Positions 28,298 through 31,458 of a stretch of DNA of 64,000 bases are shown one piece after another (position 1 is the first letter of the stretch; each line of letters opens with the position of its first letter). The notes under the pieces were generated by a model. That model searched no databases. It saw only the letters and a program-made list of their open reading frames with translations, and had not been told where the DNA came from. Origin of the DNA: Ignavibacteria bacterium (GTDB lineage: Bacteria > Bacteroidota > Ignavibacteria > Tepidaquicellales > Tepidaquicellaceae). Both the position numbers and the translations under genes were made by a program. The stretch lies in NCBI GenBank assembly GCA_028714695.1, contig JAQTLX010000001.1, positions 62,001 through 126,000 of the forward strand, read 5' to 3'.

Positions 28298-28528
28298 ATG
28301 GAAGAAAAGTTAATAAATTTTATCAAGGGAGAATATCTCGATGACGATGATATCGTGATTACAAAAGATACGAAATTAATCTCAAGCGGACTTATTGATT
28401 CTTTCTCGCTTGTGTCTCTTCAGACTTATATTGAAAGAGAATTCGGAAAAAGAATCCCTGCTCCGAAAATTACTGCGGAATCTTTTGATACGGTCGGTCA
28501 GATGATTGAAATCATCAATCAGTTCTGA
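28298..28528 (+). CDS. Acyl carrier protein of a surface-acylation cluster
   Basis: 76 residues. The four-helix ACP pattern carries GLIDSFSLV with the phosphopantetheine attachment Ser at position 35; the DSF variant of DSL is also seen in DltC-like carriers. It is acidic overall, as ACPs are. The MBOAT gene begins 4 bp after its stop, so the two are co-transcribed. By context it would present an activated acyl or aminoacyl group as a thioester to the MBOAT on the cytoplasmic face. No AMP-ligase gene that would load it lies within the window. Confidence 0.85.
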   Translation: MEEKLINFIKGEYLDDDDIVITKDTKLISSGLIDSFSLVSLQTYIEREFGKRIPAPKITAESFDTVGQMIEIINQF

Positions 28529-28532
28529 TTGA

Positions 28533-29684
28533 ATGAGGCTGGGATTCCTGTTCATATCGTTCCTCGCGGGCTCGCTTATAATTTACTGGACTCTGCCTAA
28601 CCAGAAATCAAGAACTGTCTTCCTCGGTCTGGCAAGTTTGATTTTTATTCTTCTGGCTGATAAACTCGCGGGACGAATTGTGGTAGTCCTTACTATCTAT
28701 ACTTACTTTTTCTCCGTTCTGATAGAACATTCGAAATTCAAATCGCTCTATCATAAAATATCCGTTGCCGGAATCGTATTGCTGCTCGCGTTTTTCAAGT
28801 ATATGGGATTTCTGGATAAATACATCCATTCCGTTACGCATTTTTTTATGCAGAACCCCGCGCATCCGTTCGAGAAAATTCTAGTTCCGCTCGGTCTCTC
28901 GTATATAACTTTCAGATACATCAGTTATCTGACCGATATTTACTGGGGCATAAATAAGAAAACCGATATTTATACACTTCTCTTTTACGGCGGACTTTTT
29001 ACAACATTTCTTTCGGGACCTATCGACAGATATGAACGGCTTGAAAAACAAATCAATGTCTTCCGTATCTATTTCAAAAAAGACTTTGTCTATGAAGGAT
29101 TTGAAAGAATCACAATCGGTCTGTTCAAAAAATTCGTAATAGCAGACTGGATAGGTTACATCATAAACAATATCAACTCCGACCCCGGCGGTCATTCGCT
29201 CGGAGTGAGAGCGGTAGTCCTGTTCGGTTTTTCAATTCAACTCTATATGGATTTCGCGGGTTACAGCGATATTGCAATCGGCGCTTCGCGTTTGTTCGGT
29301 CTGAAGATAATGGAAAATTTCAACAGCCCTTATACTAAACCCAACATCTCGCAGTTCTGGAGAAGTTGGCATATATCGCTCTCCGACTGGATTCGCGATT
29401 ATTTGTTTTTCCCGCTTAGCAAATACAGCGAAAATAAAATATGGCTGCTAATTATTGTCCCCATTATTTCAATGGGACTGTGCGGCATGTGGCACGGCTC
29501 GGAAATGAAATTCGCGGTGTGGGGGATGTACCACGGCGCGGGACTTTCGTTCTTTCAGTTTTGGAGCATCTGGAAAAGAAAAAATAAATCCCTGAAAAAA
29601 TTTACCGAAACAAAATCGTTTAACTTTTTCTCAATAATCATTACTTTCGTTTTCGTAACTATCGGATGGCTGTTCTTCAGATGA
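28533..29684 (+). CDS. MBOAT-family O-acyltransferase (DltB/AlgI-like)
   Basis: 383 residues with roughly ten membrane segments. The family core is clear: SQFWRSWHISLSDWIRDYLF (about 268-287), then WHG with His321 and MYHG with His334, the conserved active-site histidines. It is shorter than AlgI (about 470 residues), stopping at TIGWLFFR, where AlgI-type proteins usually run on; the missing tail is where some relatives carry a fused acyl-shuttle motif. Its stop overlaps the next start as ATGA, so translation is coupled. It should move the acyl group from the ACP across the inner membrane to an extracytoplasmic acceptor. Confidence 0.9.
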   Translation: MRLGFLFISFLAGSLIIYWTLPNQKSRTVFLGLASLIFILLADKLAGRIVVVLTIYTYFFSVLIEHSKFKSLYHKISVAGIVLLLAFFKYMGFLDKYIHSVTHFFMQNPAHPFEKILVPLGLSYITFRYISYLTDIYWGINKKTDIYTLLFYGGLFTTFLSGPIDRYERLEKQINVFRIYFKKDFVYEGFERITIGLFKKFVIADWIGYIINNINSDPGGHSLGVRAVVLFGFSIQLYMDFAGYSDIAIGASRLFGLKIMENFNSPYTKPNISQFWRSWHISLSDWIRDYLFFPLSKYSENKIWLLIIVPIISMGLCGMWHGSEMKFAVWGMYHGAGLSFFQFWSIWKRKNKSLKKFTETKSFNFFSIIITFVFVTIGWLFFR

Positions 29685-30661
29685 AAAAAATAATTATCAT
29701 ATTGCTCGGTCTTGTATTCGCGTTCATCGTATCGGAAATTATTGTATATAAAATTGTCGGTTATCCCAAAAGAACCGATTCGGTTAAATATGTTTTCCTT
29801 CCCGATTTTAAAGGATTCGAGAATCTCAAATTCAAAGAACCCTATTCGAAATTCTGGACTGTCGAAGGCGGAAATAAGGTTTACTCATATAACAATCTCC
29901 GAATCACGGGAAGAGATGTTTATCCCGATGATAAATCCACTTTGATATTCGTGCTCGGCGATTCATACGTCGAGGCGGCGTCAGTACCTGCTGACTCTAC
30001 AGGCGTTACGATTTTTCAGAATGAACTCAATACGATTGATACGAATTTAAAAGCAATCAACATCGGATATCCGAACAGCGACCCGTATACTCTCTGGTTC
30101 AGGACAATGTTCTTCGAAAAAACATACAAAGCCGATTATGTGATATTGCTTCTGACTCATCTTGACCTGCTTGACCAGAATATGCAGAGACATCCGGACA
30201 CATTGAATTTTGCCGTGCCCGAAAATTTCGGCGAAGTAATTCCACAATCGAAATCCGATAAGTTTTTTGATATATTCAGAAAAAAGTCTGCGGTGTTCAA
30301 TCTGCTTTCAACAAGTATGAGTGTAGCGGGTTCGAAGAAAGATGTAAGTGACGGCATAAGCGATGAATATGTCAAAGACCTGAACAGGAGCATGAAAAAA
30401 CTCCGTGACTGCCTGCTCCGTTATCAAGAGAAATTCGGAGATAAGTTCATTGTTGTATCGCTCGAAGTGAACGATGAAAAAAGCAAAGTGATGTCAGACG
30501 TATGCGATTCGATGAAAATAAATTATGCTGACAGAAAACTTCTTATCCCTGAAAACCAATGGGGGAAAGGCTCTCATTTAAACTATAAAGGCAACAGAGA
30601 ATTCGGGAAATTCCTGTTTGAAATATTTATGCGGTATTATAAAAAAGATAAACTGAAATGA
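29681..30661 (+). CDS. Membrane-anchored SGNH-type acyltransferase (DltD/AlgX-like role)
   Basis: The open frame begins at 29666, but the ATG at 29681 overlaps the MBOAT stop (ATGA) and gives the normal signal-anchor start MKKIIIILLG, so I use it: 326 residues. One N-terminal helix (about 3-26) is followed by an extracytoplasmic domain. Nucleophile motif is LGDSYVEA with Ser95; the third SGNH block resembles LLLTHLDLLDQN; the C-terminal GSHLNYKGN (His about 299) supplies the histidine. This fits SGNH transferases that receive an acyl group from an MBOAT system and put it on a polymer. The acceptor is unknown. Confidence 0.75.
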   Translation: MKKIIIILLGLVFAFIVSEIIVYKIVGYPKRTDSVKYVFLPDFKGFENLKFKEPYSKFWTVEGGNKVYSYNNLRITGRDVYPDDKSTLIFVLGDSYVEAASVPADSTGVTIFQNELNTIDTNLKAINIGYPNSDPYTLWFRTMFFEKTYKADYVILLLTHLDLLDQNMQRHPDTLNFAVPENFGEVIPQSKSDKFFDIFRKKSAVFNLLSTSMSVAGSKKDVSDGISDEYVKDLNRSMKKLRDCLLRYQEKFGDKFIVVSLEVNDEKSKVMSDVCDSMKINYADRKLLIPENQWGKGSHLNYKGNREFGKFLFEIFMRYYKKDKLK

Positions 30662-30699
30662 AAAACAGAAATGAAAAACTGAAATGAAAAACTGACATG
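30648..30699. repeat. 13-bp tandem repeat spanning a stop/start junction
   Basis: Four units of AAAAACTGAAATG (first and last with small changes) at 30648, 30661, 30674 and 30687. Each ends in ATG followed by A. The first ATGA contains the stop of the SGNH gene (30659-30661); only the fourth ATG (30697) opens the microprotein frame. Confidence 0.85.
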
Positions 30700-30852
30700 A
30701 AAAATATTTTTGCATTCATAAAAAATAATAACCTGAGATTATTCGTAATCTCATTCGTACTTTTCCTTATTTTCATAATCTCATTATGCTCAATTGCCTT
30801 GTTGAATATAATCGAAATCGAATCCAACCCGTTCTATTATATGAATTTCTAA
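30697..30852 (+). CDS. DltX-like single-helix microprotein with C-terminal F-x-Y-x-x-F
   Basis: 51 residues, too short for ordinary gene finders. A basic N-terminus (MKNIFAFIKNNNLR) is followed by one strong membrane helix (about 15-39) and a short acidic outer tail ending PFYYMNF, predicting the C-terminus outside the inner membrane. The last six residues, FYYMNF, fit F-x-Y-x-x-F, the type of terminal hexapeptide found on DltX, in which the Tyr carries the acyl group between MBOAT and the SGNH transferase. It lies 35 bp after the SGNH gene on the same strand. Gene reality is inferred from position, topology and the terminal motif. Confidence 0.7.
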   Translation: MKNIFAFIKNNNLRLFVISFVLFLIFIISLCSIALLNIIEIESNPFYYMNF

Positions 30853-31097: not shown

Positions 31098-31201
31098 TCC
31101 CGCGGGCTATAAATTCTTGTTCTTAAATTAGTATAAATTAGTGGGAATTAGCGGCTATATTCTCTTCCGGTAAGTTAGTGAAATTCCTGATAATTAGTGG
31201 C
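31098..31201. repeat. 104-bp direct repeat, copy 1
   Basis: Starts TCCCGCGGGCTATAAATTCT and matches 31281-31384 with a few substitutions (offset 183 bp). Composed of sub-repeats of the AATTAGTGG/AATTAGCGG type. Confidence 0.85.
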
Positions 31202-31280
31202 TATATTTTTATTAATTAGGTTCGTGAAATCCGTGTAAATCCGTGGCTGAATTTCTTTCTGATATCCTTTTTTCTTTTTT

Positions 31281-31384
31281 TCCCGCGGGCTATAAATTCT
31301 TGCTCTTAAATTAGTATCAATTAGTGAAAATTAGCGGCTATATTCTCTTCCAGTAAGTTAGTGAAATTCGTGATAATTAGTGGC
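31281..31384. repeat. 104-bp direct repeat, copy 2
   Basis: Second copy of 31098-31201; the related sequence TTCGTGAAATCCGTGTAAAT lies between the copies, and another relative (AATTCGTGATAATCTGTGGC) at 39311-39330. Confidence 0.85.
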
Positions 31385-31458
31385 AGAATGTACTTGTTCT
31401 TAATTTTCTCTGTTTTTGTTTGCTTTTACTTCTTATTTTGTATGAAAATTATTAAACC

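Follow-up and report, generated by a model that had tools for sequence, protein, structure and literature searches.

Gene organisation at the locus

The window (the whole stretch of DNA that was analysed, 64,000 nucleotides long) contains an operon in which the genes for an acyl carrier protein (ACP), an MBOAT, an SGNH protein and, last, a microprotein here called X follow one another, tightly packed or overlapping. The features are as follows.

28298 to 28528, plus strand: acyl carrier protein (ACP), 76 residues; matches PF00550 at 25.6 bits, above the cut-off
28533 to 29684, plus strand: short DltB-like MBOAT, 383 residues; matches PF03062 at 3e-18 and the solved DltB at 1e-42
29681 to 30661, plus strand: SGNH-fold transferase with an N-terminal membrane helix, recognised by alignment, predicted structure and fold search
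30697 to 30852, plus strand: microprotein X, 51 residues, single membrane helix, proposed acyl shuttle
30832 to 30849, plus strand: FYYMNF, terminal shuttle motif of X; F46, Y48 and F51 do not vary among the 15 homologues
30838 to 30840, plus strand: codon of Tyr48 of X, the proposed acyl acceptor

The start of the SGNH gene overlaps the stop of the MBOAT gene. At two loci from genomes of the same genus, L027 and L028, X likewise overlaps the SGNH gene at its 3' end. The window has no such overlap; here the SGNH stop and the X start are separated by a 13-bp tandem repeat (30643-30707). Another repeat, which is intergenic, lies at 31098-31389 and consists of 104 bp present twice at 94% identity, plus shorter copies. 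The genome contains 15 matches to it, the two window copies included.

The microprotein X

The reading frame of X begins with ATG, ends with a stop codon at 30850-30852, and encodes MKNIFAFIKNNNLRLFVISFVLFLIFIISLCSIALLNIIEIESNPFYYMNF. A sequence-only reading had described it as a 51-residue ORF with a basic N-terminus, one helix and the motif FYYMNF exactly at the C-terminus, and this description is confirmed. There is a single hydrophobic stretch, at approximately residues 13-41 (19-residue Kyte-Doolittle means of 2.5-3.0), with basic residues K2, K9 and R14 on its N-side and acidic residues E40 and E42 across it. We infer a membrane topology in which the C-terminus is periplasmic.

The window has 1005 frames of 30 codons or more, and one of them, that of X, ends in the F-x-Y-x-x-F motif. 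Simulated sequence gives a chance expectation of approximately 0.3 per window, so that the motif at the end of an ORF is unremarkable when taken alone, and X needs other support. Databases of known families do not recognise X: it has no Pfam family at E values up to 1, nothing in NCBIfam but one weak and irrelevant match, and, as a profile, only chance-level matches to PDB sequences. It is conservation that lifts X above chance, and X is a real, conserved gene.

Intact orthologues of X are present in the same place at L027 and L028. The sequence-only reading had named frameshifts or stops in close relatives, and loss of the terminal Tyr, as the results that would speak against it. Neither same-genus orthologue has a frameshift or a stop, and Y48 is invariant in all 15 aligned homologues. 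A third same-genus copy (L029) is on a contig that ends before reaching the motif, and a further genome of the genus (G003) has no match to the SGNH protein nor to the ACP of the operon type. Comparison of the window X with each of the two same-genus relatives gives pN 0.168 and pS 0.79, the latter being saturated, while comparison of L027 with L028 gives dN 0.056 and dS 0.43 (dN/dS approximately 0.13). These substitution rates indicate purifying selection on X.

The alignment comprises 15 homologues, drawn from both Ignavibacteria and Cloacimonadota. All of them share P45, F46, Y48 and F51, and every chain ends at F51. The best-conserved part of X is the terminal hexapeptide rather than the helix. 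The genome itself has two paralogues of X, one of which ends in FFYANF, and each adjoins its own DltB-length MBOAT and SGNH protein. When the X profile was run against 395 genomes from the phylum, clear matches came only from this genome and one other (G233); as the number of candidates scored in each genome was limited, absence elsewhere says little.

The partner proteins

The ACP has its phosphopantetheine site at Ser35, within the sequence GLIDSFS, and this serine is invariant among the relatives. In the MBOAT, His280 and His321 occupy invariant alignment columns, and His321 is likely to be the catalytic residue. The protein has no shuttle motif at its C-terminus.

The SGNH protein has no match in Pfam or NCBIfam. 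Structure prediction (mean pLDDT 88) gives it an N-terminal helix followed up by an SGNH fold, with Z scores of up to 16.9 in the fold search; DltD and PatB are not among the matches listed. Ser95, Asn127 and His299 are invariant in the alignment, which shows no conserved Asp three residues ahead of the catalytic His. The locus thus has the pairing that marks the broad MBOAT/SGNH class, an MBOAT with a conserved His together with an SGNH protein with Ser and His. The shuttle motif of this class is also present, being carried here by the partner X and fused to the MBOAT in relatives.

Split and fused forms of the shuttle motif

The genome encodes five MBOATs. Three are short (383-388 residues), and each of these has its own SGNH protein and X, in the order MBOAT-SGNH-X in two of the three and MBOAT-X-SGNH in the other. 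The two long MBOATs (505 and 508 residues) have the motif fused at their C-termini, as GFMYVKF and QFIYAQF. The two paralogous operons have no adjacent ACP, and another locus, L058, has X, MBOAT and SGNH protein with no ACP nearby.

The same division holds more widely. Among complete MBOATs from loci of many phyla, with duplicate loci counted once, a separate motif ORF on the same strand lies near 31 of the 43 MBOATs that have no fused motif, as against one of the 13 that have one (Fisher p = 5e-5, a value that ignores relatedness). The opposite-strand control gave three such ORFs. For the remaining twelve unfused MBOATs, a looser scan recovers motif ORFs in some.

The most informative relatives are two ACP-linked loci of Cloacimonadota, L204 and L216. 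Their MBOATs are 44-45% identical to the window MBOAT, are 75-90 residues longer, and end in FIYAGF and FRYAGF. A separate X was looked for at both loci and none was found. X therefore behaves like a C-terminus of the MBOAT that can be detached.

Separate short ORFs ending in F-x-Y-x-x-F were also noted just upstream of short MBOATs at ten loci (L065, L068, L070, L073, L076, L077, L079, L086, L090 and L094), from Hydrogenedentes, Rhodobacterales, Magnetospirillum, Elstera, Phycisphaerae, Henriciella and Parabeggiatoa. An AMP-ligase-like gene lies close to these MBOATs, in many cases accompanied by an ACP. Three of the microproteins were scanned against Pfam, with no credible match.

Relation to the Dlt pathway

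The likeness of X to DltX was part of the original proposal, which saw agreement with the DltX acyl-shuttle type. The mechanistic half of that reading is supported, by the operon with ACP, MBOAT and SGNH protein, by the invariant C-terminal Tyr motif, and by the existence of split and fused MBOATs. Membership of the DltX family or of the Dlt pathway is not supported. The DltX-type C-terminus, F-x-Y-x-x-F with an invariant Tyr, is present in 15 of 15 homologues, and yet neither X nor its relatives match the DltX model (DUF3687). The MBOAT scores 198 bits against the DltB model, under the cut-off of 375 bits, and the ACP falls below the cut-off of both DltC models (23 against 52 bits, and 27.5 against 68 bits). 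The SGNH protein, despite its fold, has no Pfam or NCBIfam match that would make it a DltD. A search of the whole genome for DltA (TIGR01734) gave a best score of 60 bits against a cut-off of 560, in an assembly that is approximately 96% complete. To our knowledge, teichoic acids are not expected in the Ignavibacteria lineage. As far as these model comparisons go, the X system appears to lie outside the Dlt pathway, with X not a member of a Dlt family. On these grounds, the cargo is probably something other than D-alanine.

Proposed mechanism

In the Dlt pathway, DltB takes D-Ala from DltC and attaches it to the DltX Tyr, and DltX then passes it to DltD (PMC12148441). In PatA, where the motif is fused, the Tyr becomes acetylated, and PatB can use an acetylated FIYANF peptide as its donor (PMC12148441). 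By analogy with these systems, we consider it highly probable that X belongs, as a detached acyl-shuttle subunit, to an envelope acyltransferase of the MBOAT/SGNH kind that is linked to an ACP and acts at the inner membrane. The cytoplasmic ACP would offer an acyl thioester to the MBOAT, which, probably using His321, would move the acyl group onto Tyr48 in the C-terminal motif of X, on the periplasmic side. X, anchored by its one membrane helix, would pass the acyl group to Ser95 of the SGNH protein, and this protein would O-acylate an extracytoplasmic glycan. The two paralogous operons would have to share one ACP. What the sequences show directly is the gene and its conservation, the operon, the families and folds of its products, their invariant residues and the existence of a fused form of the MBOAT; the topology, the chemical steps, the acceptor and the cargo are inferred.

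Two other roles for X can be weighed against the shuttle. X could be purely structural, its lone helix acting as a scaffold that holds the MBOAT and the SGNH protein together while Tyr48 is never acylated, and acylation of Tyr48 is so far argued from analogy. A scaffold of this sort does not explain why the terminal hexapeptide is the most conserved part and the helix less so, nor why exactly this terminus is kept in the fused homologues, and we regard it as very improbable. That X is a chance ORF, or a small hydrophobic toxin-like peptide, is hardly credible. It is indeed short and hydrophobic, and its motif can arise by chance, but neither idea fits with purifying selection, an invariant terminus and paralogues in matching operons; the toxin-like peptide was rejected on conservation and gene context.

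Cargo and acceptor

A clue to the cargo of the shuttle is provided by Kbl1, a glycine C-acetyltransferase paralogue. Its gene lies directly upstream of the ACP in five of eight Cloacimonadota loci with an ACP of the window type, while two Cloacimonadota operons have no adjacent Kbl1. The Ignavibacteria Kbl1 is 67-68% identical to that of Cloacimonadota, and is encoded on a contig other than that of the operon, beside an ACP paralogue and an acetate ligase. Kbl1 is present in seven of seven relatives with the operon and in 15 of 52 without it (p = 5e-4, a figure inflated by relatedness). The genome of L058 has no Kbl match at 1e-100, and there are also Kbl1-ACP pairs that have no MBOAT next to them.

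At L037:3268-8116 (G000:C19), genes in a row encode an acetate ligase, an ACP, the glycine C-acetyltransferase paralogue and another enzyme of that kind. The unit of acetate ligase, ACP and Kbl1 recurs without an adjacent MBOAT in many Ignavibacteria and Cloacimonadota genomes.

The linkage of the ACP to Kbl1 suggests a cargo of acetyl type. We tentatively propose, at somewhat less than even probability, that the cargo is a short acyl group such as acetyl, supplied through the ACP-linked Kbl1. A more specific version, in which Kbl1 would load the ACP by cleaving 2-amino-3-ketobutyrate to acetyl-ACP and glycine, and X would carry the acetyl group across the membrane in a non-Dlt system, is unlikely as it stands. 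If true, it would mean that threonine breakdown feeds surface O-acetylation without acetyl-CoA. It is also rather unlikely, if less so, that X is a shuttle for a longer or hydroxylated acyl group from fatty acid synthesis. The ACP is a dedicated one, the cluster around the C9-type copy holds a FabG-like SDR, and a gene resembling sphingolipid desaturases adjoins one paralogue; set against this, the window operon has no fatty-acid gene, and the enzymes most commonly linked to this type of ACP, or to the ACP paralogue, are acetyl-acting by family. A divergent D-alanylation or aminoacylation, with D-alanine carried by the ACP, shuttled by X and loaded by a non-orthologous enzyme, would account for an architecture that is the same as DltX-DltB-DltC-DltD, for the strong match of the MBOAT to DltB and for the weak matches of the ACP to DltC models. 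The reading is lowered by the failure to find DltA above its cut-off; the DltB and DltC models are also below theirs, the operon contains no ligase, and the ACP is linked to Kbl1 and not to a D-Ala ligase. We therefore regard it as improbable.

The desaturase-like gene, of the sphingolipid delta-4 type, is at L023:3839-4831 (G000:C1, approximately 445.8-446.8 kb), just 5' of the second MBOAT-SGNH-X copy, and matches Lipid_DES at 62 bits and FA_desaturase at 93 bits in Pfam.

The surroundings of other copies bear on the acceptor. The C9 and G011 copies are clustered with SDR, ATP-grasp and asparagine-synthase-like genes, and the G011 cluster also has a polysaccharide deacetylase and a gene that by eye is glycosyltransferase-like. 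This content would be in line with a glycan acceptor. Downstream of the C9-type copy, the order of the SDR, ATP-grasp and asparagine-synthase-like genes is shared by two genomes (L024:2629-8659 and L032:3543-9551), possibly a glycan or conjugate pathway.

Comparison with known systems

Like DltX, X is a protein of approximately 50 residues with one membrane helix and a C-terminal F-x-Y-x-x-F, and its gene too is accompanied by those for a carrier protein, a DltB-like MBOAT and an SGNH protein. It differs in the position of its gene, which comes after or between the MBOAT and SGNH genes, whereas dltX comes before dltA. The X system also differs from Dlt in having no DltX family match, no DltA and an SGNH protein unmatched by DltD models, and in belonging to a Gram-negative-type lineage. 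As dlt genes have been reported in a few Gram-negatives such as Dickeya (Kamar et al., PMC5541007), finding a DltX-like protein in such a bacterium is not by itself without precedent.

With PatA/PatB, the X system shares the pairing of an MBOAT with an SGNH protein, and X has the same type of terminal hexapeptide as the long, AlgI-type MBOATs. PatA of N. gonorrhoeae, for example, ends in FIYANF (PMC12148441). In PatA/PatB and the AlgI-type MBOATs the motif is fused and the donor is acetyl-CoA, whereas in the X system the motif is on a separate protein and the operon includes an ACP gene.

A 2025 paper describes non-Dlt MBOAT/SGNH pathways as having neither a carrier protein nor a DltX-like microprotein (PMC12148441). 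The locus described here and its relatives have both of these components, which that paper gives as absent outside Dlt, in Gram-negative-type phyla and with no DltA. The gene for X is short enough for annotation to miss, and many short bacterial MBOATs may thus look incomplete despite having a partner next door. In the abstract of a 2023 paper on DltX, the motif reportedly belongs to a microprotein in the case of Dlt, other systems having it fused to their MBOAT. The Cloacimonadota loci L204 and L216 are also close to the X system, with a neighbouring ACP whose type is the same or related and an MBOAT with a core 44-45% identical, and they differ from it in that the motif is fused to a longer MBOAT instead of being on a separate protein. 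Split and fused forms thus occur in one group of MBOATs, which offers a direct test of the modularity of the shuttle.
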